A stretch of DNA of 64,000 nucleotides from Anaerohalosphaera lusitana. GTDB taxonomy: Bacteria; Planctomycetota; Phycisphaerae; Sedimentisphaerales; Anaerohalosphaeraceae. Shown one piece after another: positions 1,052-62,174 of this stretch. The DNA is taken from NCBI RefSeq assembly GCF_002007645.1, contig NZ_CP019791.1, positions 1,364,001 through 1,428,000 of the forward strand, read 5' to 3'. The stretch's first letter is position 1, and each line of letters opens with the position of its first letter. Made by a program: the position numbers and the translations under genes. The notes under the pieces were generated by a model. The model worked only from the letters and a program-made list of their open reading frames with translations, was not told the origin of the DNA and did no database searches.

Positions 1052-1798
1052 CTAAAGCGGCGAACTGCATGAGTCGATGCGTTGTATGATCCGCTGAACG
1101 GTGCTGTGATGCCAATTGGTCTTGTCGCGGCAGTTAATGCCAGCTTCCTGCAGTTCTCGGCAAATAGCACGCAGTGACAGGCCTGATTCTTTCATTGCGA
1201 TGATCTGCTGGATGACCTGCTGTTCTGTTTCGTGTTCGATCAGTCGGCCGGGGTTGAGCGGATCGACTGTGAAACCATATGGCGGGTGTTTGCTCATGCG
1301 TTTGCCGTTGGCCTGGTGGCGAAGCATGGCAGCTTTGGTGCGGGCGGCTATTACCTTGCGTTCGTACTCTGCCAGGGTTTGGAGAATCTTGCGGATCAGC
1401 CAGTCTTCATCGTTGTCCGACCATGTACCCTCACCTGATATGCTGACGATCGATGCGCCTTTCTTTTTGACTGTGCGTTCGATAATGTCGCTGAGGTAAA
1501 CGCTGCGGGCCAAGCGGTCCAGGCGATAGACCACAAGGCAGTGACCACGTTTGAGAGCATCCATTGCAGACCACAGGCCAGGTCGATCTTCGTCTGATCC
1601 TGAGAGGGCTTTGTCGTTGAATTTTGCTACGATTTCAAGGTTGTTGTTGATGCAGTAGTCAGTGCAAAGGTCGAACTGGGTTTCGATGGACTCACACTGA
1701 TCTGCGTTTCGCCTGGGTGAGAATCTGGCATAGAGAATTGCCTTGCGAGTTGATTGGGATGGTTGGCTGATCATGCCTGTAAGTGTATCAGAATGCAT
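1052..1798 (-). CDS. Serine recombinase (resolvase/invertase type)
   Basis: A site-specific recombinase that cuts and rejoins DNA through a serine. The N-terminal catalytic domain shows YARFSP with the candidate serine, then the hallmark YRLDRLARS. A long helix region follows (ILQTLAEYERKVIAARTKAAM), then a short recombinase domain (PPYGFTVDP) and a C-terminal helix-turn-helix-like segment (SLRAICRELQEAGINC). At about 248 aa it is longer than a simple resolvase and far shorter than the usual 500-aa large serine integrases, as in many phage and transposon recombinases. ATG at 1798 or 1774 is the likely start; a further upstream TTG at 1810 is less likely. It faces the replication-type gene, consistent with a degraded mobile element at this end of the window. 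Confidence 0.8.
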   Translation of the reverse strand: MHSDTLTGMISQPSQSTRKAILYARFSPRRNADQCESIETQFDLCTDYCINNNLEIVAKFNDKALSGSDEDRPGLWSAMDALKRGHCLVVYRLDRLARSVYLSDIIERTVKKKGASIVSISGEGTWSDNDEDWLIRKILQTLAEYERKVIAARTKAAMLRHQANGKRMSKHPPYGFTVDPLNPGRLIEHETEQQVIQQIIAMKESGLSLRAICRELQEAGINCRDKTNWHHSTVQRIIQRIDSCSSPL

Positions 1799-1810
1799 CG
1801 AGAGCGGCAA

Positions 1811-15033: not shown

Positions 15034-16602
15034 ATGATGAAAAAGTTACTATTATTTGTGATTGCATGTGCAATTGTACCGGGTCTGGCGGCAGCGGATG
15101 TCATCAGCATACCAGATGCTCTGGACCAGACGGGGACGTATGGCGTTGCCAACGATTTTGAGGGCGATTTAGAAATCTCGGGCACTTATTATCTTGTTGG
15201 GACGATGACTGTTACCAATACAGGTGCCTATGCTTACAGTTACAACACGCCCGCTATCGGCGGTGTCCAGTTTGGTCAGGCCTGGAACTCTGCAAATTGG
15301 GCTATCGTTGGCGGCGGTAAAACTGTTTCAGATGTTCCCATACCCGAGGCGACTCCCACTCTGCTGGTTCTCAAGGTCAATACCACTCAAGGTACTTCTG
15401 ATCTGTTTATTAATCCTGACCTGGACGGCTTGGAACCTACGGATCCAGCGGATCCGAATCATATTACCAGGGCCGTCGGTGGTGTTGCTACCGGTGTCGG
15501 CTTTGCAGGCGATGCTACTTCCGGAACTAACGACCTGGTCGTGGACTACGAGGGATTTGAAGTTTACTATAATGGTGAAACGCCTTTTGGTATGTCTGTC
15601 ACTCAGCAGCCGCAAGATGCGCTGGCCTTTTCCGATGAGCCTGTCTCGTTCAGTGTAGAGGTTGCAAGCAGCTCAACAGTGAGCTACCAATGGAAGATAG
15701 ACGACGGCGATGGCGATACCAGCAATGATCTCGATGTGGAAGGTGCTACGGATGCAACGCTGAGCTTTGCGACCGCGGCCGGCAACTGGGGTACTTATTA
15801 CTGTGAAGTCACCAGCGATGGCGGTTTTACCTTATTGAGTGATTCGGCTACTCTGGCGATTAAGGAAGAAGTTTGTCATTGGGCCTTTGAAGGTGACCTG
15901 ACTGATGGCACAGGCAATGGCTATGATGGTACAGCCTACTACGAAGCTGACACAGTAATTGATCCAAACTATGTAACTGGTATCGATGGTCAGGCACTGG
16001 ATGCTGATACGATCCTCGTGGAACATGATCTAAGCGAACAGCAAAGCTGGCAGGAATTCACAGTGAACTTATGGGTCAAGTCTGATACGGATACGCAGAC
16101 TAGTTACGCTGGAATTTTCAACAACGGCAAAGCTGCTGGTGACGATTTCCAGATTGGCTGTGGTACTACTGTTTATCGTTTTAATGGTTCCGTAGCGGTC
16201 AACGATATGGCTCCGTTGAGCACGACCGAATGGACCATGCTTACGGTGACTTGTGATGCCGCAGGCACTAAGGTATATGCCGATGGTTCGTACGTTGGAG
16301 AAAACGGTTCAAGGCGGGTTGATTTCGGCAGGTTTGCTGTTGGTGCAAACCGTGGTGACGGTCTCTTCTTCGATGGTGCTATAGACGATCTTCGGATATT
16401 CAACTATGCAAAAACTGCGGAAGAAGTGGCTACGGATTACTATGCAATAACCGGCGAGGCTGTTTGTACTGACAGACCAGCCTGGGATGTTGCCGGTCCG
16501 AATGGTGAACCTGATTGCGTGGTCGACCTCCTTGATCTCGCATCGTTTGCAACAGAATGGATGGACTGCGGTCTGACACCTGCCGAAGCATGTTCTCTGT
16601 AA
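15034..16602 (+). CDS. Secreted Ig-like / LamG / dockerin-like protein
   Basis: 522 aa. ATG at 15034 or 15037 after AAAGGG (15025-15030). Signal peptide MMKKLLLFVIACAIVPGLAAA, then a beta-rich N-terminal domain of about 165 residues (a concanavalin-like fold is possible), an Ig-like domain (about 190-280: VTQQPQDALAFSDEPVSFSVEV, YQWKIDDGDGDTSND, GTYYCEVTSDGG), a LamG domain (about 284-470: CHWAFEGDLTDGTGNGYDG, FAVGANRGDGLFFDGAIDDLRIFNYAKTAEEV), and a dockerin-like end (DCVVDLLDLASFATEWMDCG). The LamG-dockerin portion is closely related to that of 34592-36598 in another operon. No catalytic motif seen; a glycan-binding or surface-anchoring role is inferred. First structural gene after sigma/anti-sigma pair 2. 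Confidence 0.75.
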   Translation: MMKKLLLFVIACAIVPGLAAADVISIPDALDQTGTYGVANDFEGDLEISGTYYLVGTMTVTNTGAYAYSYNTPAIGGVQFGQAWNSANWAIVGGGKTVSDVPIPEATPTLLVLKVNTTQGTSDLFINPDLDGLEPTDPADPNHITRAVGGVATGVGFAGDATSGTNDLVVDYEGFEVYYNGETPFGMSVTQQPQDALAFSDEPVSFSVEVASSSTVSYQWKIDDGDGDTSNDLDVEGATDATLSFATAAGNWGTYYCEVTSDGGFTLLSDSATLAIKEEVCHWAFEGDLTDGTGNGYDGTAYYEADTVIDPNYVTGIDGQALDADTILVEHDLSEQQSWQEFTVNLWVKSDTDTQTSYAGIFNNGKAAGDDFQIGCGTTVYRFNGSVAVNDMAPLSTTEWTMLTVTCDAAGTKVYADGSYVGENGSRRVDFGRFAVGANRGDGLFFDGAIDDLRIFNYAKTAEEVATDYYAITGEAVCTDRPAWDVAGPNGEPDCVVDLLDLASFATEWMDCGLTPAEACSL

Positions 16603-16818
16603 TTAGAGTTTTTGAAGTCACAGGTGAGGGCCCGGTTCTGGCCGGGCCTTTCACTTCTTTAATTGGTTAAAGTAATTGTTTGGGTGCAAGCAGTTTCATT
16701 TCGCAGTTACAGATTGTGTGCTGTACGATGTGCGAATGCCTTGAATTGTGTGCGAAATAGGATTAAATATGTTCACCTGCAAACTATTTGTCAAAACGTT
16801 TGTACTTGTTCTGGTTTT
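16594..16818 (+). repeat. Duplicated leader region, copy 1 (terminator, promoter region, start of signal peptide)
   Basis: Nearly identical to 20600-20824 with a constant offset of 4006. It spans the end of the upstream gene, the terminator, the whole intergenic region and the first codons of the next gene (F-V-K-T-F-V-L-V-L). It includes two TGTGCGAA direct repeats 20 bases apart at 16729 and 16749. The two genes after these copies encode unrelated catalytic domains. Confidence 0.85.
16629..16651 (+). terminator. Terminator hairpin
   Basis: GGCCCGG (16629-16635) and CCGGGCC (16642-16648) form a GC-rich stem followed by TTTCAC. An identical copy lies 4006 bases downstream at 20635-20657. Confidence 0.65.
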
Positions 16819-19800
16819 TGTTAGCTTTGGTGCCTATGCATCAGCTGCGCAGACGACGCTGCAGGGTACGGACGGACAATTTATAGTGACCTTTGATTCT
16901 TCGGATAACTCTTGCCGCTTGCTTTCCATAAAAAATGCGGCCAGCCAGCGCGAATACATTGTCCCCCAAAACAGACTCTGGAGTCTGACCCTGAAACACA
17001 CCTCGGGCGAGACGGTTACGATCGACAGCGCTGAATGCGATGCACGGATTGGTATATCCGAATCGCGCACAAAAGGGGAGATCCTTTGGGAATTGGGGCA
17101 GACCCTCGAGCGGGAAATGTCGGAACAACTGCTAGAAGACGGCGATGCGGTTGGAAGGGAAGACATGGAGGTCATTTGCCGCGCAGAGGTGGACCAAGAG
17201 GGTTGCTACCTCGATCTCGAAGTTGACAATACTTCGCAAAATTGGTCGCTACATGATGTCGTTTTCCCCTATGTCAATCTCGGACAGCTCGGCGAAAGCC
17301 TTGATGATGATTACATACTTACACCCGAAACCAGTGGGCGAGTCACCCCGAAACCGCTGCTTTCAGGTTTGCAACTCCGACATTGGGGGAAAACGGTGGA
17401 TTATCTGCCTTACCCCTCGGCAGGCGCTCCTTTTCAGGCTTTTGCCTACTGGGACAAGACTGGTGGCATCTATCTCTCTCCCGAAGATCCTCACGGAAGC
17501 ACGAAGTTTCTTGGCGCATCTAGTGCTGCGGGCGGCGATTCGGTCGAAATAAAAGTCAAATGGGCGGTTCCGGATGCGACAATCCCAGGCAACGACTTCA
17601 AGCAACCCGGGGGGTTCCGCATGCAGTTTTTCGAGGGGGACTGGTTCGACGCGGCCCAAATCTACAAAGAATGGGTATTTTCCGACACCGTCTGGAATCC
17701 GGATTTAGAAGCGCGCAGCAGCTGGCTAGACAACAATCACCTCTGGCTCAATGCCCGCGGTACACCGGACGAGATCGTGGACCCGATAAAGGAGTTTGCG
17801 GATTTTATGGATATGCCCCTGGCCGTGCATTGGTATATGTGGCATCAGATACTCTGGGATCAGAAGTACCCCGATTATTTCCCCGCCGAGCCCGGTTTCG
17901 CCGCGGCAATTGACGAATTGCAGGCTAGAAATATTAAGATTGTACCGTATATCAACGGCAGGGTTTGGGACACCGGTTTGAATGATTTCGAGAGTGAAGC
18001 CCTGCCGGCCGCAGCAAAGACGGTTGATCAGAACTTCGTGTCGGCTACTTTCGGAACCCCTTCCCTCTTCGCTGTAATGTGCCCGACAACTCCCACTTGG
18101 CAGAACAAGATGAATGAGATTATTCTGAGGCTGGCCGGACCGGAGTTCGGTGTCGACGGGGTCTATCTAGATATGCTGGCAGCGGCACCGCCCGCACAGT
18201 GTTTCGACCCCTCCCACAGCCATCCGCTGGGCGGCGGTTCCTGGTGGATAGAAGAGGGCTATCGCCCGATGTTGCAGATGATTAGAGAAGAATTAAGTTC
18301 GCGCAATCTGGAAAATACCATCCTCGCGACCGAATCCCTCTCGGAACCGTATGTGGGCCTTATGGGTGGATATCTCACGTGGGACCTCACCTATCAGAAT
18401 ATGGTTCCGTTTTTCCATGCCGTCTACGGAGGCAGCGCCCATATGTTCGGAAGAAGATATGGCGGCACTGATCAGACCGCCCACCGCATTAAGATAGCCC
18501 AGGCGCTGGTATTCGGCGAACAGCTGGGGTGGTGCTTTCCGAATTTCATTGAGCAGGATGCGGCGACTTATATGAAGAAAGCCGCCCATATACGCCAAGA
18601 GTTATCATTCTTTGTAGGCAGAGGTCAGATGCTGAGGCCGCCCGAAATTACCGGCGACATCCCACTACTGACCGCCGACTGGAGCTGGCTCAACCAGGAC
18701 TGGCCGATTACGGCCAGCGCCATTCAAAGAGGTGCCTGGAGCAATGAACAAGGCGATGCCGCCTTCATATTCGCGAACGCGTCCGATAGAGAGATAGATT
18801 TCCTGTGGCACTGCGATCTGGCAGAGTATGGTTTGGACAAAGGCGGGGTTTCCGTGTCAAAATTGGGCTCGGACAGAATAGTCGAGTTCTCCGGCGATAA
18901 ATTCAGTGAAAACATCCGTATCTCCCCGCGGGAAATACGGGTGTATATCTCCAGGAAAGCAGATGCAATTCATGCTTACTGGCCTTTAGATGAAACAACT
19001 GGCACGACCGCACAGGATGTTGCTTACAATGCCAACGGAACACTTAACGGGGGACTGGATTTCGCAAATGACAGCGTAACCGGCAAATATGATTCAGCCC
19101 TCAACTTCGATGGTGTTGATGATTACATCGCATTAGGTACTGATCCCGCACTGTCTGGTACTTTTGGATTTTCTATTTCTGCCTGGATAAAGACCACCGC
19201 ATCTGGTGTTATTATTCAGCAGAGAGATGGCAGTGTAGGCGGGTATAATGGTCAATATATAGTCAGAGTTAACTCTGACGGGACTGCTGGTTTTGTGGTT
19301 TATAACGATGGCTATCAATTAAACTTTGCCAGTACACAAAAGGTTAATGACGGCAATTGGCATCACATTGTGGCCGTTCGCCAAGGCAACGATGGTTATA
19401 TTTATGTTGATGCGGGTGCACCGGCAACAGACAGCGGACCAGTAAAATCTCTGAATGCAAATCTCGCAGTCTCGATAGGTGTGGATATAAGGGATTCTGT
19501 CGGCTATTTCGATGGTGTTATCGATGATGTTAAAATTTACAATTATCCTATTACAGCGCAACGAATTACTGACATTTACACTGGGGATATACGGTCGGAC
19601 CTTTTGAGTCCCAAAGACGGCAGCGCAGGTGTTACGAAAAGAATTTTGGAATGGCTGCATGTGCCCAATGCTGATAGTTATGATGTATATCTGGGAACGA
19701 GCTATACCGCTGTTGCTAACGCTACGCCTGGTTCAGCGGAATACCAGGGCAATACCAATTCAACTATTTACGATGCATCGTTTATACTGGATGGATCTAC

Positions 19801-20608
19801 GGAATATTTCTGGAGAATCGATCCGGTAAACGCAGGCGGAGCACTATCTGGCAATGTCTGGGACTTTACCACCGACTCAACAGTCGAGCCATATAGAGAG
19901 GTCTGTCACTGGACTTTTGACGGCACTCTCGCTGATGCGACTGGTAACGGCTATGACGGTACAGCCTCCAAGAGTCCAGTTTATGTCGCTGGTGTCAGCG
20001 GCCAAGCGCTCAATGCTGATGAAATTACAGTGGAACACGTTCTTGCTCAGCAAGAGACCTGGCAGGAGTTCACGGTTACAGTGTGGGCTAAGTCCGACAC
20101 ACATACTCAGATGCCTTATGCTGCGGTATTTAATAACAACAGTGACGGAAACGATTTCCAGATTGATTGCGGCGAAGATACTTATCGTTATTATGCTTAC
20201 GGGCTTGTTGACATGGCTGCGATTAGCATGAATGACTGGACGATGCTCACAGCGGCATGTGATGCCGATAGCGTTAAACTGTATACCAATGGTGAACTGG
20301 TTGCCCAGAGCAGTAATCGCGGGGTTGACTTCGGCAGGTTTGCAGTTGGCGTTAATCGTGGCGGAACTAACTTCTTTGATGGTGCTATAGACGATCTTCG
20401 GATATTCAACTATGCAAGAAGCGCAGAGGAAATTGCCACAGATTACTACGCCATAACTGGTGAAGCCATCTGTCTTGAAAGACCAAGTATGGACATTGCC
20501 GGTCCTAATGGTAAACCTGATTGCAAAGTTGACTTGCACGATTTTGCGTCCTTTGCAGCAGAATGGATGGATTGCGGCCTGAGTCCGCAAGAAGTATATG
20601 CTCTGTAA
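16769..20608 (+). CDS. Secreted DUF6259-type glycoside hydrolase-like enzyme with LamG-Fn3-LamG-dockerin tail
   Basis: About 1279 aa from ATG 16769 (AGGA before it). Signal peptide CKLFVKTFVLVLVFVSFGAYASA. Residues about 30-720 form a beta-sandwich plus TIM-barrel-like region of the DUF6259 kind: MPLAVHWYMWHQILWDQKYPDYFP, ARNIKIVPYINGRVWD, FGVDGVYLDMLAAAPPAQCFDPSHSH and ILATESLSEPYVG. D in YLDM and E in ATESL are candidate catalytic acids, by analogy with retaining hydrolases. The tail (about 733-1279) holds LamG, Fn3-like, a second LamG and a dockerin-like motif (DCKVDLHDFASFAAEWMDCG). That tail is almost identical to the next gene's. Substrate unknown; a secreted glycan-cleaving role is inferred from the neighbours. 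Confidence 0.7.
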   Translation: MFTCKLFVKTFVLVLVFVSFGAYASAAQTTLQGTDGQFIVTFDSSDNSCRLLSIKNAASQREYIVPQNRLWSLTLKHTSGETVTIDSAECDARIGISESRTKGEILWELGQTLEREMSEQLLEDGDAVGREDMEVICRAEVDQEGCYLDLEVDNTSQNWSLHDVVFPYVNLGQLGESLDDDYILTPETSGRVTPKPLLSGLQLRHWGKTVDYLPYPSAGAPFQAFAYWDKTGGIYLSPEDPHGSTKFLGASSAAGGDSVEIKVKWAVPDATIPGNDFKQPGGFRMQFFEGDWFDAAQIYKEWVFSDTVWNPDLEARSSWLDNNHLWLNARGTPDEIVDPIKEFADFMDMPLAVHWYMWHQILWDQKYPDYFPAEPGFAAAIDELQARNIKIVPYINGRVWDTGLNDFESEALPAAAKTVDQNFVSATFGTPSLFAVMCPTTPTWQNKMNEIILRLAGPEFGVDGVYLDMLAAAPPAQCFDPSHSHPLGGGSWWIEEGYRPMLQMIREELSSRNLENTILATESLSEPYVGLMGGYLTWDLTYQNMVPFFHAVYGGSAHMFGRRYGGTDQTAHRIKIAQALVFGEQLGWCFPNFIEQDAATYMKKAAHIRQELSFFVGRGQMLRPPEITGDIPLLTADWSWLNQDWPITASAIQRGAWSNEQGDAAFIFANASDREIDFLWHCDLAEYGLDKGGVSVSKLGSDRIVEFSGDKFSENIRISPREIRVYISRKADAIHAYWPLDETTGTTAQDVAYNANGTLNGGLDFANDSVTGKYDSALNFDGVDDYIALGTDPALSGTFGFSISAWIKTTASGVIIQQRDGSVGGYNGQYIVRVNSDGTAGFVVYNDGYQLNFASTQKVNDGNWHHIVAVRQGNDGYIYVDAGAPATDSGPVKSLNANLAVSIGVDIRDSVGYFDGVIDDVKIYNYPITAQRITDIYTGDIRSDLLSPKDGSAGVTKRILEWLHVPNADSYDVYLGTSYTAVANATPGSAEYQGNTNSTIYDASFILDGSTEYFWRIDPVNAGGALSGNVWDFTTDSTVEPYREVCHWTFDGTLADATGNGYDGTASKSPVYVAGVSGQALNADEITVEHVLAQQETWQEFTVTVWAKSDTHTQMPYAAVFNNNSDGNDFQIDCGEDTYRYYAYGLVDMAAISMNDWTMLTAACDADSVKLYTNGELVAQSSNRGVDFGRFAVGVNRGGTNFFDGAIDDLRIFNYARSAEEIATDYYAITGEAICLERPSMDIAGPNGKPDCKVDLHDFASFAAEWMDCGLSPQEVYAL
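18967..20596 (+). repeat. 1.63-kb C-terminal cassette, copy 1 (LamG-Fn3-LamG-dockerin)
   Basis: Aligns with 22103-23732 at a constant offset of 3136 with no gaps. The few differences I saw are scattered single bases, clustered slightly at the left edge (gaaacaactgg versus gaaatgactgg). Homology begins sharply at AATTCATGC and ends just before the stop. The similarity is at DNA level, including silent positions, indicating recent duplication or gene conversion. Confidence 0.92.
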
Positions 20609-20824
20609 TTAGAATTTTTGAAGTCACAGGTGAGGGCCCGGTTCTGGCCGGGCCTTTCACTTCTTTAATTGGTTAAAGTAATTGTTTGGGTGCAAGCAGT
20701 TTCATTTCGCAGTTACAGATTGTGTGCTGTACGATGTGCGAATGCCTTGAATTGTGTGCGAAATAGGAGTAAATATGTTTAACTGCAAAGTATTTGTCAA
20801 AACGTTTGTACTTGTTCTGTTTAT
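20600..20824 (+). repeat. Duplicated leader region, copy 2
   Basis: Copy of 16594-16818 (offset 4006). It contains the same terminator hairpin at 20635-20657 and TGTGCGAA repeats at 20735 and 20755, and ends a few codons into the signal peptide of the metalloprotease gene, where the two sequences diverge. Confidence 0.85.
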
Positions 20825-23744
20825 GGCTTTCGGGGGTTACGCAACAGGTGCGGCTCCTGAAACACTGACCCAGCAAGTTAATCACAACGGCGGGACATTG
20901 ACACTGAGAATGACAAAGGAAACAGTGAGGGGGCCGCAATTTAATGTGAAAGTCCAAAATGCCTCTGGTGCATACGGCGATTACACCGCCGGCGAAGTTC
21001 GAACTTATATGGGAACCGTTGATGAAGATCCTTCAGCTCTGGTAGCTGGTGTATTGAGCGACAACGGTCAGCTGAAAACGAAGATATATTTTGATCGCGG
21101 CCATACATTGTTTACAGAGGGTGCTGCGGTAACAGGTCATCGAGGAAGCGGGATACCAGCTTACTCTTTGCCCACTATGGCGACATTGGGTGCCGGCCGT
21201 GTAGGTGGTGATATGTACCGTTTCAATATCGGCATTGACGTGGCTTACTGGTTTTATAACAGACACAACGATGTGGGGAAATGTTTGGAGATGGTGGAAT
21301 TCGCTGCTTGCCAACTGAAGGCAATGTATACGCAAAATGCCCTCCTTATGCCGGCTCTCAGCCTGGTGGTAATTCGAACTTCTGCAGAGGCATGCCCTTA
21401 CGAGGGAGTATTTGGTAATACCCAGCTGGGAGTGATGAAAAATCAATGGAATAATGATCATTACGCCAACCTAGAAGGATACGAAGCCGCAGCTCTTGGT
21501 GTAGGGCAACTCGGTGGTGGCGTAGCTTGGGTTGGGCAGCTCTATCCATCTGATGCCCGATATTGTTTTAACGGTATTTCGGGCGACGGCAACTTCGATA
21601 TTTTGGCGAGGCATGAATTAGGACACCTCTGGGGGGGGCTTGATAATCAGGCCGGCCGGCCTGAAGGTTCAACTATTATGTGCGGCAATTATTATGGCCG
21701 ATTCTCAGGACCCGTACTAGAGAGAATTATTAATAATCGCAATAAGTACCAGAATGCTCATGTTAATATCGGGAAATATACAAATATTCAAATTCCTCCG
21801 TATGCTGCGCTCGACGTTATGGCTGAAGGAATCAGAGAGGGTAATAGCTGGCGTTTTGATGTGATGGCAAACGACCATGATGCTAATGCTGAGGCCATGT
21901 CTATATATAACTACGACAGCAGTTCAAACCTTGGCGGTACTGTAACTTTGTCCCAGGGTACAGGACCTGACGGGCGAGATGAACTGCTTTATTTTGCGCC
22001 CATTGGTAAAACCGGCACAGACAGTTTTCATTACACTATAGAGGATTCGTCGGGCAGTCGTGCTACTGGTGTTGTGGTAGCGAAAATAGTGGCTGGCGAA
22101 AAAATTCATGCTTACTGGCCTTTAGATGAAATGACTGGCACGACTGCTCAGGATATTGCTTACAATGCCAACGGAACACTTAACGGGGGACTGGATTTCG
22201 CAAATGACAGCGTAACCGGCAAATATGATTCAGCCCTCAACTTCGATGGTGTTGATGATTACATCGCATTAGGTACTGATCCCGCACTGTCTGGTACTTT
22301 TGGATTTTCTATTTCTGCCTGGGTAAAGACCACCGCATCTGGTGTTATTATTCAGCAGAGAGATGGCAGTGTAGGCGGGTATAATGGTCAATATATAGTC
22401 AGAGTCAACTCTGACGGGACTGCTGGTTTTGTGGTTTATAACGATGGCTATCAATTAAACTTTGCCAGTACACAAAAGGTTAATGACGGCAATTGGCATC
22501 ACATTGTGGCCGTTCGCCAAGGCAACGATGGTTATATTTATGTTGATGCGGGTGCACCGGCAACAGACAGCGGACCAGTAAAATCTCTGAATGCAAATCT
22601 CGCAGTCTCGATAGGTGTGGATATAAGGGATTCTGTCGGCTATTTCGATGGTGTTATCGATGATGTTAAAATTTACAATTATCCTATTACAGCGCAACGA
22701 ATTACTGACATTTACACTGGGGATATACGGTCGGACCTTTTGAGTCCCAAAGACGGCAGCGCAGGTGTTACGAAAAGAATTTTGGAATGGCTGCATGTGC
22801 CCAATGCTGATAGTTATGATGTATATCTGGGAACGAGCTATACCGCTGTTGCTAACGCTACGCCTGGTTCAGCGGAATACCAGGGCAATACCAATTCAAC
22901 TATTTACGATGCATCGTTTATACTGGATGGATCTACGGAATATTTCTGGAGAATCGATCCGGTAAACGCAGGCGGAGCACTACCTGGCAATGTCTGGGAC
23001 TTTACCACCGACTCAACAGTCGAGCCATATAGAGAGGTCTGTCACTGGACTTTTGACGGCACTCTCGCTGATGCGACTGGTAACGGCTATGACGGTACAG
23101 CCTCCAAGAGTCCAGTTTATGTCGCTGGTGTCAGCGGCCAAGCGCTCAATGCTGATGAAATTACAGTGGAACACGTTCTTGCTCAGCAAGAGACCTGGCA
23201 GGAGTTCACGGTTACAGTGTGGGCTAAGTCCGACACACATACTCAGATGCCTTATGCTGCGGTATTTAATAACAACAGTGACGGAAACGATTTCCAGATT
23301 GATTGCGGCGAAGATACTTATCGTTATTATGCTTACGGGCTTGTTGACATGGCTGCGATTAGCATGAATGACTGGACGATGCTCACAGCGGCATGTGATG
23401 CCGATAGCGTTAAACTGTATACCAATGGTGAACTGGTTGCCCAGAGCAGTAATCGCGGGGTTGACTTCGGCAGGTTTGCAGTTGGCGTTAATCGTGGCGG
23501 AACTAACTTCTTTGATGGTGCTATAGACGATCTTCGGATATTCAACTATGCAAGAAGCGCAGAGGAAATTGCCACAGATTACTACGCCATAACTGGTGAA
23601 GCCATCTGTCTTGAAAGACCAAGTATGGACATTGCCGGTCCTAATGGTAAACCTGACTGCAAAGTTGACTTGCACGATTTTGCGTCCTTTGCAGCAGAAT
23701 GGATGGATTGCGGCCTGAGTCCGCAAGAAGTATGTCCACAATAA
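20775..23744 (+). CDS. Secreted metzincin-like zinc metalloprotease with LamG-Fn3-LamG-dockerin tail
   Basis: About 989 aa from ATG 20775. Signal peptide, a pro-region-like part (about 25-130), then a catalytic domain with HELGHLWGGLD (about residues 283-293). This gives the metzincin pattern HExxHxxxxxD, with a likely Met-turn in STIMCGN about 20 residues later. A cadherin-like domain follows (DVMANDHDANAEAMSIYNYD, GTDSFHYTIEDSSG; about 350-440), then the LamG, Fn3-like, LamG and dockerin-like cassette shared with the previous gene. The third zinc ligand is Asp rather than His/Asp-Gly order of classical families, so the family is not certain. It may trim glycoproteins or mature secreted partners. 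Its place among glycan enzymes, with a shared tail, suggests a common surface location. Confidence 0.75.
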   Translation: MFNCKVFVKTFVLVLFMAFGGYATGAAPETLTQQVNHNGGTLTLRMTKETVRGPQFNVKVQNASGAYGDYTAGEVRTYMGTVDEDPSALVAGVLSDNGQLKTKIYFDRGHTLFTEGAAVTGHRGSGIPAYSLPTMATLGAGRVGGDMYRFNIGIDVAYWFYNRHNDVGKCLEMVEFAACQLKAMYTQNALLMPALSLVVIRTSAEACPYEGVFGNTQLGVMKNQWNNDHYANLEGYEAAALGVGQLGGGVAWVGQLYPSDARYCFNGISGDGNFDILARHELGHLWGGLDNQAGRPEGSTIMCGNYYGRFSGPVLERIINNRNKYQNAHVNIGKYTNIQIPPYAALDVMAEGIREGNSWRFDVMANDHDANAEAMSIYNYDSSSNLGGTVTLSQGTGPDGRDELLYFAPIGKTGTDSFHYTIEDSSGSRATGVVVAKIVAGEKIHAYWPLDEMTGTTAQDIAYNANGTLNGGLDFANDSVTGKYDSALNFDGVDDYIALGTDPALSGTFGFSISAWVKTTASGVIIQQRDGSVGGYNGQYIVRVNSDGTAGFVVYNDGYQLNFASTQKVNDGNWHHIVAVRQGNDGYIYVDAGAPATDSGPVKSLNANLAVSIGVDIRDSVGYFDGVIDDVKIYNYPITAQRITDIYTGDIRSDLLSPKDGSAGVTKRILEWLHVPNADSYDVYLGTSYTAVANATPGSAEYQGNTNSTIYDASFILDGSTEYFWRIDPVNAGGALPGNVWDFTTDSTVEPYREVCHWTFDGTLADATGNGYDGTASKSPVYVAGVSGQALNADEITVEHVLAQQETWQEFTVTVWAKSDTHTQMPYAAVFNNNSDGNDFQIDCGEDTYRYYAYGLVDMAAISMNDWTMLTAACDADSVKLYTNGELVAQSSNRGVDFGRFAVGVNRGGTNFFDGAIDDLRIFNYARSAEEIATDYYAITGEAICLERPSMDIAGPNGKPDCKVDLHDFASFAAEWMDCGLSPQEVCPQ
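22103..23732 (+). repeat. 1.63-kb C-terminal cassette, copy 2
   Basis: Second copy of the cassette at 18967-20596, differing at only a handful of positions. Differences include one that changes Ser to Pro at the Fn3-like segment (ctatct/ctacct) and the divergent last codons (TATGCTCTG versus TGTCCACAA). Confidence 0.92.
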
Positions 23745-24710: not shown

Positions 24711-27700
24711 ATGAAAATTTGTAGTGTAAAGATTATTTTTTCACTTCTAGTAATTTGCTGTGTAAATCAGGTTTTGTGTGCCGCTTCTACATGGCAGGAG
24801 ACTCGCGACATTATATACAAGCCGAATACTGGAAAACAATCTACCACTCTAAAGCCCAATGATTCAATCTCTTTTTCTGTTCCAAAGTCCAACTCCGACA
24901 CTGCCGTTCGCCGGTTTCTTCGGGTTGTGGGCGGGGTTAAAATGCCGCCTCCTTTTCATGGACGCGGCGAAGGCAAATTTCGTGGTGCAGAGGTCCTTAT
25001 TGACGACTGTCTGAACTCCGAAGTTACTAAAAATGAGTCGTATTCACTTTACTTTCAGGGCGATAACGACAAATTCGAACGCCAAGCCTATTACAGAATT
25101 ACCAACGGAACACTTAAGCGCGGCAAGCTGACTGTCACTTTGCCTGTCATAAAAAAGAATGATCTGCAGAAAAGCCCTGAAGGCGATTTCGGCATAACGA
25201 TCGAGCTGTTCAATAAAAAGCCAGGGCGCGCCCCGAATGACATCTACGATGAACCGGACAGGATTCTGCACATACCTGTGCCTGAGGGATCTTCTGATTA
25301 TCAGCAGGTGAAGAAAACATTTGAATTGCCTGAAAATCTTTCCTGCGCCCTGCTTATAGTGGGCGGGACTGATTTCAGCGGCGAGTGCTGGGTTGAATCG
25401 CCAGTACTTGAGCAAGATGGGGAAAGAGTGTGCTCAATTCCCTTTACTAAACTTGCTGACAGAAAGGACAAAACCAATTACTGGGTTGGGGTCAATCTTG
25501 CTACGCGCAGCTGGCCCATGTGGAAACTGGAATCTGACGGAAAGACCGTATTCGAAGATCGCCGCTTTGACCGAGGATCAAATGTTGCCGACTTCTTTAT
25601 CCCGCTTCCTGGTGATCTGACCGGTGAGGCGACTTTCGAGCTGACTCTACTGAAGGAATCGCATCGTGCCTCGTTTCCATATGAATTGCGGCAGGTGGAA
25701 TTGATAGAGGAAACCGCTAGGGATTATGAAGTAATATCTGTTCCGAAGTTCGTGCGAAAACAGGGACCTTTCGGTATTCTGATAGAGACTAATAAGCCCG
25801 ATATAGAGCTTAGTATCAAAAGTGACGGCGATGTGAAGCCCGGCAGTCAGGAAGTCCGCTTTGAGCAGCCGGGTCTTCATGTGGTGGAATTCCGTGCAGG
25901 AAAGGCAGGGGTGCCGATACAGTTTGAGTTTCACGATGGTCAGAGAGTTGAGAAGGCGGAGGTTGCTCAAGTTATAGCGAAGCCTTCTGAAGAGATCTAC
26001 CTGTCAAGTGGTGATGAAATTTACCTGGACAAGGACTACGAACTTTACGACCATTTTTTCAAGTGGTATTTTGCCAATCGAATTGGGAACTGGTACCAGT
26101 TCCGCCCTTCATATCAGTGGAGCGGTTTTCGAATAGTGGATCCTTCATGGGTAAGGAATTACGTCCGTCTGCTGGAAGGTTTGAAAATGCCTTTCGCCTG
26201 GCAGGTGGAAGGGCGTAACTTGGCGAGCAGTCGGCTGAATCCCTCACTGAAGACTTTAATGTCACCAATGTTCCGAGGTAAACAGGCCCATGAAAACGAT
26301 GGAGGTTACTATTATTGGCGACATTTCAGGTATAAGGGCCTGTCCTCCGATATAGCGGCTCGAAATCGGCCCTATGGTGGGATATTTGCAAAGCACAGGC
26401 CCATTTATACAGATCATAGCACGTTTGTTCACTATGATCCCGAAGGGGTCAAGGATATGGCAGACGGGGCCTTCCAGTTCGTCAATAATGTACGGTATTC
26501 AAAGGGCGAAAGTACTCGCCATACCGGTCCTTCGACGCTTTTCAGATATTTGTATCAGTCTGGATACGAATGGCTGGGAGCCGAACAAATGTACGGACCA
26601 GAGGAAGTGATTCTTTCTTCTTTGAGAGGAGCATCGCGAGCCTATAGCCGTCCTGATTATGGAACCTTACATGCGATGCAGTGGGGATCTCGCGATTTTA
26701 CTAACCCCAAGCATGCTTTACGTTTTTACATGTCGCTGGCAGTAGCTTACATGCATGGATCCTCGCAAATGAACACGGAAGAGGCGCTTTGGGTCGATGA
26801 ATATATGAACGACAGGTATTCAAAATCCGGCAAAGCGCACATTTTCGCTCAGCACCAGATGCTGGATTTTATCGAAACGCATACCCGCAGAGGCAGTCTG
26901 AATAGTCCAATCGCTGTCGTACAGGGACGAAATGATGCCTGGAAATGTTTTGGACGCCACAGCCTCTGGTCCCAAAGAGGCCAAAAATGGAAGTTTAACA
27001 AAGCCGCACAAAGCTGGGATCTTCTTAAAGTTTTTTATCCGGAAAACACTTTGAATGTGTGCGGCCCTAATGGATGGTTCACTTCCACTCCTTATGGGAC
27101 GGTTGATATACTTCCCATCGAAGCCCCGTTGGACGTGATGAAAGAATACAAGACCATGATTTTTCTCGGGTGGAACACCTTTGATGAACATGAGTTTATG
27201 CGAATTCGCGATTTTGTTTTTGATGGGGGCACCTTGCTCCTGAGCGGGGCGCACCTTAACGTTGAACTGCAGCCTGATGCTCCAGTCAAATTCCCCGAGC
27301 AGGACGCTGTCATCCGCGAGCTCCTGGGGGAGAATTATCGCGATATAAGCGAAAAGACAACCCGCGAATTTGGTCTTGGTCAAGTAATATATTTCCCCGA
27401 AAAAGCTTATCCAGCCGAGAGCTCATTGCGGAAATCCTATGAGCAGACCATGCATGAACTGGCCAAGGCAGGTATTTCTGATGAAAAAGGAAAAGGCTGG
27501 GTTGAAAAGTCGCCTGGTATTGGATTTACAGTCTGGGACAGCGAGGTTCGTCGGACAATATATCTTCTTAACACGGACTGGAAAAGTGATCAGAAGACGA
27601 AAACGGCAAAAGTCACAATCAACGGTAAAAAGTTTCCTGTTGCCGTGCGGCAGTACCATGTTGAGGTAATACATTGTTTTGAAGATATTGCTGTAAAGGC

Positions 27701-33701: not shown

Positions 33702-33796
33702 TCGGTCAGATATGGGCCCGATATTGAAAAGTTAATTGTATGGGCGTTGAGCCCGAAATTGTTTTTTTATTTTTGTTCCTTTTGGAGGGCATAACG

Positions 33797-34564
33797 ATGA
33801 AAAAGTTTGTTGTTTCAATGGCAGTGGTTATTGTTGCATGTGCAGGCGCACAGGCAGGTATTGTTGAGCATCTCACATTCGATATTGACGGCACGGCGGC
33901 GACCGGCACTGATGCCGTTCTGGTAGGCGATGCCGCAGTCACGACCGGCGGCATGGGCATCAGCGGCGAAGCTCTGCAGCTCGACGGTGACGGCGACTTC
34001 GCAACCACGCCGGGCTTTAAGGGTATCGCCGGCGCGGATGCTCGTACGGTTTCGCTCTGGGTTAAGACCGCCGTCAATCAGGCTGACGGTACTTTCTTCC
34101 TCGGCTGGGGTGATACTGGATTCGGCAGCCGTGTACGCTACGATCTGGGGCTGCAGAAGGGTACAAGCGATCAGCTTCGCAACGAGCTAAACGCCGGCGC
34201 GATCACCAGCAACACAGGTACGACCATCACCGACGATGCATGGCACCACATCAGCTTGACTTTTGATGGTACCACCACAACGTTCTATGTTGACGGCCAG
34301 ACTTACGGTACATCTACGACGTCAGTCAACACTACTACTACCGAGGACCTTGTAATAGGTACTGGTATTCGTCCGGCGACAGAGTTTAACGAGAATGCTC
34401 GCTGGACGAATGGCTTGATCGACGATGTTCAGATCTATGATGAAGCATTGACGGGCGACCAGGTCGCCACATTGTATGCGAATCCGGGTACGGTTGTTCC
34501 CGAGCCCGCAACCCTCGCAATCCTTGGAATTGGCGCACTGGCACTTGGACGTCGCAGAAAGTAA
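33797..34564 (+). CDS. Secreted LamG PEP-CTERM protein
   Basis: 255 aa from ATG 33797, with GGAGGG at 33784-33789. Signal peptide KKFVVSMAVVIVACAGAQAG, a single LamG domain (about 22-225: VEHLTFDIDGTAATGTDAVL, RTVSLWVKTAVNQADGTFFLGWGDTGFGSR, WHHISLTFDGTTTTFYVDGQ, GLIDDVQIYDEALTGDQVA), and the PEP-CTERM tail VVPEPATLAILGIGALALGRRRK. Its LamG domain is very close to the first LamG domains of the next two genes, which carry dockerin-like tails. Same position in its operon as the PEP-CTERM gene at 5210. Confidence 0.85.
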   Translation: MKKFVVSMAVVIVACAGAQAGIVEHLTFDIDGTAATGTDAVLVGDAAVTTGGMGISGEALQLDGDGDFATTPGFKGIAGADARTVSLWVKTAVNQADGTFFLGWGDTGFGSRVRYDLGLQKGTSDQLRNELNAGAITSNTGTTITDDAWHHISLTFDGTTTTFYVDGQTYGTSTTSVNTTTTEDLVIGTGIRPATEFNENARWTNGLIDDVQIYDEALTGDQVATLYANPGTVVPEPATLAILGIGALALGRRRK

Positions 34565-34591
34565 CTGAAATTTTTCAGGAAAGGGAATTTT

Positions 34592-36598
34592 ATGAAAAGA
34601 ATGACCATTTTTCTATGCATGGTTGTCATTGTCTGCCTTGCAGGTGTATCACAGGCCAAGCTTGTGGAATATCTGACATTCGATGCAGACGGCAGTGCGA
34701 TTGTGGGAGCCGACGCTGTTTTGAACGGTGATGCAGCAATAAGCACCGGAACGCAGGGCATCGTCGGCGAGGCCTTACAGCTTGACGGTGACGGCGATTT
34801 CGCAACCACACCTGGCTTTAAGGGTATTGGCGGCGCAAATCCGCGAACTGTTTCTCTGTGGGTCAAGACCAGTGTAAATCAGGCTGACGGTACTTTTTTC
34901 CTCGGCTGGGGTGATACCGGTTTTGGAAGTCGGGTTCGTTATGATCTTGGTCTTCAGTCGGGAACTTCCGATCAGCTTAGAAATGAGCTCAATGCGGGAG
35001 CAATCACCAGTGATACGGGTACGACCATAACTGACGATGCATGGCATCACATTGCCTTGACGTTCGATGGCACAACTACCACGTTTTACGTTGACGGCCA
35101 GGCTTACGGCACGTCCACCACATCAGTCAACACTACTACTACCGAGGATCTTGCGATTGGCACCGGTGTTCGTGAATCCGTTGAATGGGGAACGATGACT
35201 CGCTGGACTCAAGGCCTTATCGACGAGGTGCAGATATACGATGAGGCGCTCACTGCCACGGATATCTCGTACATGTACAGTAATCCGGGCGATGTTGCAT
35301 ATCCTATGGTTGCCTTGCAGAATCCTTCTAACGGTGAAGAACGTGTCAGCGTAACACCGGTGCTCGAGTGGTCCGTTCTTGGCGGCAGTTCGAGCCAGGA
35401 GACAATCACGGTGCGGCCGACAGATCCAAATGCAGCGGCTATAGTCACCGATGAGCCTGCAAGTTCGCCATATACTCTGCCAGTGACGCTGGATTACGGA
35501 ACCGAGTACGAGTGGAAGGTTGACGCTGTCATAGATGGTGTTGCGACGGCGGGTGAGTTTTCCACGTTTACCACCTTACCGGCAATTCCTGTCATAGATC
35601 AGCAGCCTCAGAGTGTGCTGGTATTTGGGGACGACCCCGTTTCACTGACTGTGGAAGTGACCAGTCCGTCTGCAGTATCTTATCAGTGGATGATAGATGA
35701 CGGAGATGGTGATACGGAAAACGATGTTGAAGTTCCCGGCGCTACTGATGCTGCCTTGAGCTTTGCTGCCGCAGCCGGCAATGAGGGTACATACTATTGC
35801 CTGGTAACCAATGATGGCGGTACAGTGTCAAGTGAGTCGGCAACGATTGCAGTCAAAAAGCTTGTCTGCAACTGGACCTTTGATGGGACGCTGGCTGATG
35901 CGACAGGAAATGGCTATGACGGAACTGTCCAGCAGCGTGATCCTAATACTACACAGGTAGCTAACTATGTTGCCGGCATCGATGGACAGGCGCTCGATGC
36001 TGATTCGATCATTGTTGAGCATGTCCTGCCCCAGCAGGAGACCTGGCAGGAGTACACAGTGACAGTCTGGGCCAAGTCGGATACTGAGACGCAGACATCA
36101 TATGCCGGTGTTTTCAACAACGGCAAAGCTGCTGCTGACGACTTCCAGATCGGCTGTGGCTCTACAGTTTATCGTTATAATGGTTCCGTAGCGTTTAATA
36201 ATATTGCTCCTTTGAGCACGACCGCATGGACCATGCTTACGGTGACTTGTGATGCCGCAGGCACCAAGGTATATGCCGATGGCTCATACGTTGGAGAAAA
36301 CAGTTCAAGACGAGTTGATTTTAGCAGATTTGCTGTTGGTGCCAACCGCGGTGACGGGCTCTTCTTTGATGGTGCTATAGATGACCTCAGGGTCTTTAAT
36401 TATGCACGAACTGCTGAAGAGGTTGCTGAAGATTACTACGCCATAACTGGTGAAGCCATATGTCTCACAAATCCTGACATGGACATCACCGGTCCAAACG
36501 GCGAACCTGACTGTGTAGTTGACCTCCACGATTTTGCGTCCTTCGCAGCAGGATGGATGGAATGCGGGCTGTGGCCTTTGGAAGCATGTCCGCAGTAG
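34592..36598 (+). CDS. Secreted LamG / Fn3-like / Ig-like / LamG / dockerin-like protein
   Basis: 668 aa. Signal peptide MKRMTIFLCMVVIVCLAGVSQA, LamG-1 (about 24-232; very close to the preceding protein), Fn3-like segment (about 240-325: VSVTPVLEWSVLGGSSSQETI, YEWKVDAVIDGV), Ig-like (about 330-420: IDQQPQSVLVFGDDPVSLTVEV, GTYYCLVTNDGG), LamG-2 (about 424-615) and a dockerin-like end (DCVVDLHDFASFAAGWMECG). LamG-2 and the tail closely match those of 15034-16602 in the second operon. No catalytic motif was seen. The modular layout suggests a glycan-binding or linking protein at the surface. A terminator hairpin follows. Confidence 0.75.
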   Translation: MKRMTIFLCMVVIVCLAGVSQAKLVEYLTFDADGSAIVGADAVLNGDAAISTGTQGIVGEALQLDGDGDFATTPGFKGIGGANPRTVSLWVKTSVNQADGTFFLGWGDTGFGSRVRYDLGLQSGTSDQLRNELNAGAITSDTGTTITDDAWHHIALTFDGTTTTFYVDGQAYGTSTTSVNTTTTEDLAIGTGVRESVEWGTMTRWTQGLIDEVQIYDEALTATDISYMYSNPGDVAYPMVALQNPSNGEERVSVTPVLEWSVLGGSSSQETITVRPTDPNAAAIVTDEPASSPYTLPVTLDYGTEYEWKVDAVIDGVATAGEFSTFTTLPAIPVIDQQPQSVLVFGDDPVSLTVEVTSPSAVSYQWMIDDGDGDTENDVEVPGATDAALSFAAAAGNEGTYYCLVTNDGGTVSSESATIAVKKLVCNWTFDGTLADATGNGYDGTVQQRDPNTTQVANYVAGIDGQALDADSIIVEHVLPQQETWQEYTVTVWAKSDTETQTSYAGVFNNGKAAADDFQIGCGSTVYRYNGSVAFNNIAPLSTTAWTMLTVTCDAAGTKVYADGSYVGENSSRRVDFSRFAVGANRGDGLFFDGAIDDLRVFNYARTAEEVAEDYYAITGEAICLTNPDMDITGPNGEPDCVVDLHDFASFAAGWMECGLWPLEACPQ

Positions 36599-36617
36599 TT
36601 TAGTTTACCCGAACAGT

Positions 36618-36651
36618 GTGGGAGTTCGGTTAATCCGAGCTCCCACTTTTT
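36618..36651 (+). terminator. Terminator hairpin
   Basis: GTGGGAGTTCGG (36618-36629) pairs with CCGAGCTCCCAC (36634-36645), followed by TTTTT. It sits between the second and third LamG genes of the block. Confidence 0.75.
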
Positions 36652-36689
36652 ATGAATACGGGTGCTTTTTTGATTGTGAAAGGTGAACC

Positions 36690-39245
36690 ATGAAGAAGAT
36701 TGTGATGTGTACGGCAATCGCCGCATGGTGTTTCATGGGGGTTGCAAACGCGAACCTTGTGCAGCATTTGACTTTTGATGTGGACGGCAGTGCGACCGTC
36801 GGTTATGACGCTTCCCTGCGTGATGGCGCCTATATAACCTCAGGCGGGCAGGGCAGATTCGGCGAAGCGCTGGCCCTGGACGGTTCCGGTGATATGGCCG
36901 TGATTGACGGCTATAAAGGTATTGGCGGTGCCGATCCGCGGACGGTTTCTCTATGGGTCAAAACCGCGGTCAACCAGTCCAACGGTACCTTTTTTATGGG
37001 TTGGGGCGACGCTGGATATGGAACCCGCGTGAGGTACGACTTCGGGCTTCAGGCCGGCACAACCGACCAGATCAGAAACGAACTTAACGCCGGTTATTCA
37101 TTGAGTTCTCGCGGAACCACGATAACTGACGATCAGTGGCATCATGTGGCACTTACCTGGGACGGCACAACGGCAACCTTCTACCTCGATGGGCAACTGT
37201 ACGGTACGGACCAGCCCGGAACCGTAAATACGACGCTAACCGAGGATGTGGTTATCGGCACAGGTATTCGGCAGGCATTCGCAGGATACACGGACAACAG
37301 ATGGACAGACGGTCTTATAGATGATGTCAGAATTTATGACACTGCTCTGCCTGCAACGGAGATTCAAAAGCTTTACCTGGGCAATGTACCGATGGTGGTT
37401 AATCCAACTCCTGCCGATGCGACCGATCATTTCGATCCGCTCGCAACGTTGAGCTGGGAGGTTTACAATGCTGAGAACGCTTCGTTAGAACTGAACATAG
37501 GTACGGATGTCGCCTGCAGCGATGTCGTCAGCGGGCTCGGCATAGGCTCGGCAACGAGCTACGATCTTTCGAATCTGCCCCTCGCATACGGCACGACCTA
37601 CTTCTGGCGTGTTGATGTTATTGATGGTGAGGAAGTTTACCAGGGACAGGTGTGGTCGTTTACAACCGGCGGCGTTGCGAGTGATCCTGACCCCGCCGAT
37701 GGGGGCAAGGCCGATAATGAGGCTCAGCCGTTCACATGGCAGGGCGATTCGCTGGTCTGCTCATATGACGTCTATTTTGGTACACTGAACGCTATGTCCT
37801 TCGTGGGTAATTATGAGACGGCATCGGTCAGCTATTCGCAACTTGCAGCCTCTCTGGGCGAGGTGCTGATACCTGCCGGCGAGTACCAATGGCGGGTCGA
37901 TACAATTGATTGTGCAGGTGAGCTGATGGTGACCGGGCAGGTCTGGACCGTTACAATGCCCGAGCCCGATGCAGTTATGATTGATGATTTCCGCGGCTAT
38001 GCTGATCAGGCCGCACTGGACGCGGTCTGGGCCGATGGAGACACTAACGGCAGCGGCACGGTCGCAGTTTACGATAAACTGACGGACGTGCTTTTCGTTG
38101 AGTTTGATGCGATAGGATCAGAGCCTTGCAAAGTATCGCGGACTTTTACTACAGCTCAGGACTGGGCCGGAACGGGCCGAGATACATTTTCATTTGAGTT
38201 CAGGGGCGTTGATGGTAACGGTCCCGATGATGTTTACATCGAGTTTTCGGATGGAACGAATACGGCACGCTTCACAAAGTCCGGGGCAGCAGTCAACGCG
38301 GAATGGAGCACGTGGTACATTCCTCTGGCGAAAATAAGCGATGCGGGGGTGGATACGTCAGGCATCACTGAGATTGCGGTTGGTACGATCCCGGCCGTCG
38401 GTTCGGCAGGCAACGGTGTGCTCGTAATTGATGAGTTCATGCTCTCGTTGCCGGGATGTATTGATGAGTTGAGGCCCGCGATGGACCTTACCGGCGACTG
38501 TGTGGTCGATATTGCTGATCTCGCAGAATTTGCCGACGACTGGATGATGAGCGATTTCGTTGTTACTGCGCAAACACGTCCCGCAGCGGTATGTGAATAT
38601 GATTTTGAAAATAGCCTGGCCGACAGTTCCGGCAACGGTTTTGACGGAGCAGTTGTGCCTTCAGGTGCAGCGGTAGTTTACGCCTCCGGGGGGATAGATA
38701 ATGACTCATGTGTATCGCTTGACGGCACATACCAGATCGAGCTGCCTGCTTCGGTTTTTAGCGGCATATCGAACGAGTTGACAATTTGCTGCTGGATGAA
38801 GGGCGGTGAAGGCCTTGAAGAATTTGAGTTCACCGGCGGCAGTTCAGCTAAACACGCAGTATGGGAAGATGCAGTCGCAGCGATCGAGCCGGGCCAGAGC
38901 GATTGGAAACATTATGCGGTTGTGATGGATTCGGCTGGTGAGGCTCGCTTTTATGTGGACGGCAAGCTGATCGCGATCGAGCAGGGTTTTGACAGCGGCA
39001 TACAGGGAACCAATTCAGGAACATCCGTCCTGCGGTACATGCCCTTTGCTGATGAGACTGACAGAATATACGTGGACGATCTGCAGGTATATGGGCAGGC
39101 CCTGACACAGCAACAGGTAGTAGACATTGCCTTCGGACCTGCGGGCCATGTTGTTCAGCCGATAAGCCCAATTTATACCGATGCCGACATCGATGCTACC
39201 GGCAGGGTCGATCTGGCTGATTTTGCTGAACTGCAAGATGAATAG
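36690..39245 (+). CDS. Secreted LamG multidomain protein with internal dockerin-like motif
   Basis: 851 aa. Signal peptide MKKIVMCTAIAAWCFMGVANA, LamG-1 (about 22-232), two Fn3-like segments (about 235-430: TSYDLSNLPLAYGTTYFWRVDV, YQWRVDTIDCAG), a beta-sandwich with FEFRGVDGNGPDDVYIEFSDGTNTARFTK and IGVGTIP-like text (about 430-590). A dockerin-like motif DLTGDCVVDIADLAEFADDWM follows (about 597-617), then LamG-2 (about 630-820), and finally a second, shortened dockerin-like end (DIDATGRVDLADFAELQDE) that stops before the usual W-x-D-C-G. The missing last residues may weaken anchoring. Same gene-block position as the other non-catalytic LamG proteins. Confidence 0.73.
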   Translation: MKKIVMCTAIAAWCFMGVANANLVQHLTFDVDGSATVGYDASLRDGAYITSGGQGRFGEALALDGSGDMAVIDGYKGIGGADPRTVSLWVKTAVNQSNGTFFMGWGDAGYGTRVRYDFGLQAGTTDQIRNELNAGYSLSSRGTTITDDQWHHVALTWDGTTATFYLDGQLYGTDQPGTVNTTLTEDVVIGTGIRQAFAGYTDNRWTDGLIDDVRIYDTALPATEIQKLYLGNVPMVVNPTPADATDHFDPLATLSWEVYNAENASLELNIGTDVACSDVVSGLGIGSATSYDLSNLPLAYGTTYFWRVDVIDGEEVYQGQVWSFTTGGVASDPDPADGGKADNEAQPFTWQGDSLVCSYDVYFGTLNAMSFVGNYETASVSYSQLAASLGEVLIPAGEYQWRVDTIDCAGELMVTGQVWTVTMPEPDAVMIDDFRGYADQAALDAVWADGDTNGSGTVAVYDKLTDVLFVEFDAIGSEPCKVSRTFTTAQDWAGTGRDTFSFEFRGVDGNGPDDVYIEFSDGTNTARFTKSGAAVNAEWSTWYIPLAKISDAGVDTSGITEIAVGTIPAVGSAGNGVLVIDEFMLSLPGCIDELRPAMDLTGDCVVDIADLAEFADDWMMSDFVVTAQTRPAAVCEYDFENSLADSSGNGFDGAVVPSGAAVVYASGGIDNDSCVSLDGTYQIELPASVFSGISNELTICCWMKGGEGLEEFEFTGGSSAKHAVWEDAVAAIEPGQSDWKHYAVVMDSAGEARFYVDGKLIAIEQGFDSGIQGTNSGTSVLRYMPFADETDRIYVDDLQVYGQALTQQQVVDIAFGPAGHVVQPISPIYTDADIDATGRVDLADFAELQDE

Positions 39246-60447: not shown

Positions 60448-61002
60448 ATGAGTGATGTTAGGGAAGAGAGCTCTCAGCCTGACAATTACCATCGACTTTT
60501 ATATCAAAATCAGTCTCGGATTTATGCATATGTGCTGACTATGGTTGGCAATTACTCTGATGCGGATGATGTTATGCAAGAAACCATCAGTTTTATGTGG
60601 AAGCGTTTTGAAGATTTTGAGCTAGGATCAGATTTTGTCGCATGGGGAATCAGAATTGCTCGCTACAAGATTTTAGAGCATCGAAGGCGGCAAAAAAAAC
60701 ATGACATTGTTCAATATAGCGATGGTTCTTTTGAGAAACTATCCTCACTTGCGGTTAACAAAAATGATAATCTCAGCAATCAAAATGTAAAGCTGAAAGA
60801 ATGCCTCAAGAAATTGAAACATTTTAAAAAACGATATTTTACCGTTATTGCATTAAAGTTTTTCGAAAATTGCAATACCAATGATATCGCTAAACGAATT
60901 GGGGTGTCTGTCCCTAATGTATATACAATTATGTCACGAGCATATGGTTATTTATTGGCTTGCATGAAGAAGTCCATGTCTAGTGCCGTTTCAAAAATAT
61001 AA
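60448..61002 (+). CDS. ECF RNA polymerase sigma factor, pair 4 (C-terminus altered by IS630)
   Basis: 184 aa. Region 2: SRIYAYVLTMVGNYSDADDVMQETISFMWKRFEDFE, DFVAWGIRIARYKILEHRRRQKK. Region 4: LKECLKKLKHFKKRYFTVIALKFFENCNTNDIAKRIGVSVPNVYTIMSRAYG. The last codons (S-A-V-S-K-I) and the stop are supplied by the IS630 left end that begins at 60983. Without the IS, the frame reads S-M-S-S-L-E-S-L and stops at TAA 62173-62175, overlapping the anti-sigma ATG. Regions 2 and 4 are intact, so the factor may still work. Confidence 0.87.
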   Translation: MSDVREESSQPDNYHRLLYQNQSRIYAYVLTMVGNYSDADDVMQETISFMWKRFEDFELGSDFVAWGIRIARYKILEHRRRQKKHDIVQYSDGSFEKLSSLAVNKNDNLSNQNVKLKECLKKLKHFKKRYFTVIALKFFENCNTNDIAKRIGVSVPNVYTIMSRAYGYLLACMKKSMSSAVSKI

Positions 61003-62156: not shown

Positions 62157-62174
62157 TAGTTTAGAAAGTCTATA

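Follow-up and report, generated by a model that had tools for sequence, protein, structure and literature searches.

Near-identical ends around unrelated catalytic cores in two neighbouring genes for predicted secreted enzymes of Anaerohalosphaera lusitana

Tip exchange in polymorphic toxins uses homologous recombination to join different active parts to a conserved part. In methanogens, shuffling and fusion gave one of the paralogues mtrA-1 and mtrA-2 a different domain, and gene conversion homogenises the domain that the two share (PMC4632066). The multi-domain enzymes of Caldicellulosiruptor are described as products of domain shuffling (PMC7151638). Here, we describe two adjacent genes of A. 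lusitana, B and C, that have near-identical ends and non-homologous cores joined at domain limits. This architecture fits module shuffling of secreted enzymes.

Genes B and C lie between the related genes A and D in the window, i.e., the whole stretch of 64,000 nucleotides that was analysed (Table 1). The window also encodes sulfatases, an alpha-N-acetylglucosaminidase, a rhamnosidase, a GH36 enzyme, FecR-type regulators, a sigma factor and DUF1559-type pseudopilins, a gene content that would suit a planctomycete locus directed at sulfated glycans. Among the sugar-metabolism genes of the locus, one frame of 490 aa (50352-51824) has zero Pfam matches. A resolvase-type recombinase is encoded near the start of the window (1052-1810, minus strand). 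An IS630-like element with ends CTAGTGCCGTTTC (60980-62162; HTH and DDE_3 across two frames) overlaps an ECF sigma-factor frame at the latter's end. The copy of this element at genome positions 2704480-2705662, which is 99% identical, sits inside the signal peptide of a metzincin paralogue, which it probably breaks. Separately, the 2.6 kb at 24784-27387 have a 94%-identical copy at genome positions 2697473-2700076; that copy is fused upstream to Fn3-like sequence, shortened, and followed by a transposase-like frame.

Table 1. Features of the locus, in window coordinates
Feature	Coordinates	Strand	Content
Gene A	15034..16602	+	Ig-like and LamG protein, one-motif dockerin-like end
Gene B	16769..20608	+	signal peptide, DUF6259 core, LamG, Fn3-like, LamG, dockerin-like tail; 1279 aa
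DUF6259 core of B	16850..18964	+	complete to usual C-terminus; GC3 0.61; only copy in genome
Gene C	20775..23744	+	signal peptide, metzincin (HELGHLWGGLD), Big_9, then tail as in B; 989 aa
Gene D	34592..36598	+	LamG, Ig, LamG, dockerin-like; last LamG clusters with LamGs of A, B and C
Shared 5' block, copy 1	16595..16813	+	gene A stop and terminator, promoter region, ribosome-binding site, signal-peptide start of B
Shared 5' block, copy 2	20601..20819	+	gene B stop and terminator, promoter region, signal-peptide start of C
Shared 3' block, copy 1	18967..20597	+	LamG1, Fn3-like, LamG2, dockerin-like motif
Shared 3' block, copy 2	22103..23733	+	LamG1, Fn3-like, LamG2, dockerin-like motif

What do genes B and C share? 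A preliminary description of this DNA reported a gapless common tail of about 1.6 kb (offset 3136) and a common leader of 225 bases (offset 4006), placed around a DUF6259-type enzyme in one gene and a metzincin-like protease in the other. The tail is borne out, at 1,631 bp with 9 mismatches and zero gaps. Self-comparison of the window also finds the leader to be truly shared (219 bp, 5 mismatches), but it consists mainly of the boundary between two transcription units: only some 45 nt encode signal peptide, and the rest is mostly intergenic terminator and promoter sequence. At the A-B boundary, the stop codon of A is followed by a terminator hairpin (16626-16651), a spacer, the motif AGGA and the ATG of gene B. 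The same arrangement is repeated before the ATG of gene C, with a matching hairpin at 20632-20657. Identity is 100% over 16609-16762, drops within the signal peptide from 16763 and is gone past 16813, beyond which the two signal peptides differ by about a third, including a 3-nt indel. Downstream of C, the sequence is unlike that after B and has its own terminator. Within the tail, sequence reading below the Pfam cut-offs places an Fn3-like stretch between the two LamG domains and a single EF-hand-like dockerin motif at the end.

The preliminary description also suggested a genome-wide look for genes with this tail, which identifies B and C as the sole near-identical copies. A third was absent from the whole genome; the next long matches, in genes A and D, are 68% identical over about 700 bp (in A, to the second half of the B/C tail), and matches better than 68% elsewhere in the genome are stretches of 31-96 bp only. 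The leader has exactly two copies, with no third in a whole-genome search. Neither block thus has a further near-identical copy in this single-contig genome, and the blocks are therefore not a dispersed element. Judged by the length and identity of the blocks, chance is excluded as the source of the sharing. The likeliest role of the tail is probably glycan binding or attachment, in which case B and C, both predicted to be secreted enzymes, would be supplied with the same binding or attachment part.

The two cores are of the kinds first proposed. That of B matches DUF6259 (PF19773) with an E-value of 3.4e-78 and 263 bits (cut-off 28.7), over profile positions 2-300 of 300, and all residues that are invariant among DUF6259 homologues are present. 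A profile search of solved structures found no convincing PDB relative of DUF6259, a single-sequence model of the core (pLDDT 36) is too poor for use, and a literature search found no papers naming the domain; we predict that the enzyme is probably a glycosidase. The zinc motif of C, HELGHLWGGLD, fits HExxHxxxxxH/D and is followed downstream by a STIMCGN segment. Its residues H257, E258, H261 and D267 are invariant in 12 paralogues. Taken alone, C scores weakly against a curated reprolysin HMM (19.9 bits vs a cut-off of 27), and PF13688 is matched by all 12 of the metzincin paralogues (best E-value 1.8e-9). The core of C is thus predicted to be a reprolysin-like metzincin and a probable protein-cutting enzyme. 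A core search finds 12 copies in the genome, the other 11 at 40%-55% identity to C, and the reading frames, almost all of which carry C-terminal modules, range from 455 to 1,425 aa. Two more diverged metzincin-like proteins (genome 279436-282921 and 330513-335168) make the family larger than the 12 from the core search. A scan of named genomes with the whole protein C returned generic LamG proteins only. The reading frames of B and C are unbroken, and both genes look intact.

Which of the two genes is the composite? It is likely B, in which a DUF6259 enzyme would have been put into the casing of a metzincin gene. First, the metzincin core is multi-copy and comes with C-terminal modules, and the nearest LamG relatives of the tail are in metzincin genes. 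In a tree of 76 LamG domains, the first LamG of B and C falls next to the second LamG of each of two other metzincin genes (326919 and 279910), and their second LamG falls next to the LamGs of A and D in their own locus. Second, GC3 matches between core and tail in C (0.43 and 0.41) and steps from 0.61 to 0.41 in B, although the range within the window is 0.40-0.67, such that this step is suggestive. Third, DUF6259 is single-copy in this genome and absent from every same-family genome in the sample, which included none of the same genus; it is present in other families of the order and phylum. Fourth, its homologues generally stop 5-6 residues past the position of ISPREIRVYIS in B, about where the tail of B starts. 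Longer homologues have mostly N-terminal extra parts. Two homologues (L126 and L131) have unrelated C-terminal extensions other than the tail of B, suggesting that fusions of another kind are open to the DUF6259 enzyme.

As a further sign that the tail goes with the metzincin core, several metzincin paralogues join Big_9 to LamG by a linker that equals that of C in length and position. The idea that these paralogues have the very same core-tail joint as C is weakened by the tree, in which the first LamG of the paralogues falls in a different subgroup and the first LamG of C matches their second. As read from the tree, the tail of C is itself rearranged too, because its first LamG is of the type that stands second in other metzincin genes.

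The differences between the two copies are unevenly spread. There are none in the 154 bp of the intergenic stretch (16609-16762) and four in the 1,578 bp of the tail interior; by contrast, the edges have five in the first 53 bp of the tail and four in the 51 bp of the signal-peptide stretch (16763-16813). For edges versus interior, this amounts to 9/104 versus 4/1,732 (Fisher p 2.5e-9). For the tail alone, an any-window permutation gives p 0.0005, or 0.007 with a doublet counted as one event. Some of the edge differences are synonymous (ACC/ACT, GCA/GCT, TTC/TTT). This excess points to later gene conversion that failed beside the heterologous cores, because differences, synonymous ones included, pile up beside non-homologous sequence, and one recent event does not readily give that. 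Selection on the joints could account for part of the edge differences. The preliminary description had offered either modular assembly by exchange of cores between fixed ends or ongoing gene conversion at both ends, and both halves appear to apply. Conversion is supported by the excess at the edges. Assembly also stands, with a direction that can be read; repeated exchange of cores is not shown by the evidence, since one composite gene accounts for all that the locus displays.

The origin that we favour, with moderate confidence, is that B is a composite of C, formed by tandem copying, core replacement and then conversion between B and C. A second, tandem metzincin gene, complete with promoter, signal peptide and tail, would have arisen in the region of A and C; recombination between their similar 3' ends is the probable route. 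Indeed, the last codons of B match C up to GAA GTA and then match A (CTG TAA and the terminator of A). The switch is in register, which is the pattern that such recombination would leave if it had produced a copy of C and its upstream boundary. In the upstream copy, a complete DUF6259 enzyme, normally tailless, may then have replaced the metzincin between the signal peptide and the LamG-Fn3-LamG-dockerin tail. Later gene conversion between B and C would have held the tail and intergenic block near-identical, without reaching the final few tens of bases next to the non-homologous cores.

Local likeness of tails is not confined to this pair. The best match of a LamG domain is in another gene within 25 kb for 24 of 76 domains (expected 3.0; maximum 11 in 5,000 draws), and for 19 of 72 when B and C are left out. 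Such likeness among neighbours fits local duplication and local conversion alike, and the test does not separate the two. Three adjacent genes at 33740-39245 form another local family, with closely related first LamGs (68%-85% identical). In an all-against-all comparison of the LamG-bearing regions of the genome, a second near-identical tail (678 bp, 98%) is common to a metzincin gene (2286222-2290499) and a GH18-LamG gene (2263450-2267235) that lie about 26 kb apart in opposite orientation. It consists of a dockerin motif, a GH115_C-like domain and a second dockerin motif, and 8 of its 13 differences fall within 55 bp.

Could conversion alone account for the locus? B and C would then be long-standing neighbours with related signal peptides and LamG tails of their own, and their ends would have been levelled recently, with no core swap. 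This is rather unlikely. The edge differences do adjoin both cores, LamG tails are abundant (100 LamG matches in the genome) and locally similar, and the inverted orientation of the 678-bp tail rules out simple tandem duplication there. However, the terminator-promoter block of B and C is doubled too, which needs duplication of the boundary upstream of B, and DUF6259 homologues lack this tail, such that B must in any scenario have acquired its own at some time. The converse proposal, that tandem duplication and core replacement happened as one recent event with no later conversion and that the edges have changed faster through selection on the joints, is improbable. It has to contend with the synonymous differences at the edges and with the distal signal peptide, which is about one-third different with its indel, even though the tail interior and intergenic block differ by just about 0.2%.

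The remaining explanations question the locus itself or the way in which its ends have moved. A 1.6-kb repeat at 99.4% identity is able to confuse a short-read assembly, such that one tail or leader might have been doubled or misjoined. We consider this very improbable: the assembly comprises one contig of 4,250,973 bp with 99.96% completeness, 9 positions distinguish the two tails, and their 3' flanks are unlike. Furthermore, because the repeats alternate as leader-core-tail-leader-core-tail, the worst that a misjoin of short reads could do is to exchange the positions of the two cores; it could not create the sharing. Carriage of the ends by a mobile element or a site-specific cassette system is hardly credible at all. 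Transposases and a resolvase-type recombinase are present in the window, but neither block occurs elsewhere in the genome, there is no transposase or recombinase gene between A and C, and the blocks are direct repeats whose limits coincide with domain limits.

What does a composite origin of B mean? At this locus, the direction in which a multi-module secreted enzyme was assembled can be read, the limits of the modules are clean, and the shared parts show signs of recent levelling. The 100 LamG matches and the dozen or more related metzincins suggest that new exported enzymes are built by refitting existing casings, and the tails seem to evolve together within a neighbourhood instead of separately in each gene. 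A further proposal, which we hold to be quite doubtful, is that the LamG-dockerin tail is a locus-specific attachment tag and that gene conversion keeps the secreted proteins of one polysaccharide locus on the same tail. If so, different enzymes and a protease would be gathered on one target or surface partner.

How does this locus compare with the systems described above? Unlike polymorphic toxins, B and C come with no toxin, immunity gene or orphan tip, and both constant ends are kept. Like the multi-module carbohydrate-active enzymes of Caldicellulosiruptor (PMC7151638), they are secreted enzymes with different catalytic modules and common binding modules; they differ from these in that a protease is one of the two partners, that the sharing extends to the promoter block and signal peptide, and that later conversion is supported by evidence. 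The likeness to mtrA-1 and mtrA-2 lies in shuffling and fusion in one paralogue and conversion of the shared part. In the mtrA pair, however, the MtrA domain is common to both and the difference is a membrane anchor, whereas B and C have their ends in common and differ in their catalytic cores. Rather than a new system, B and C are a clear and recent example of a known process, module shuffling together with concerted evolution.
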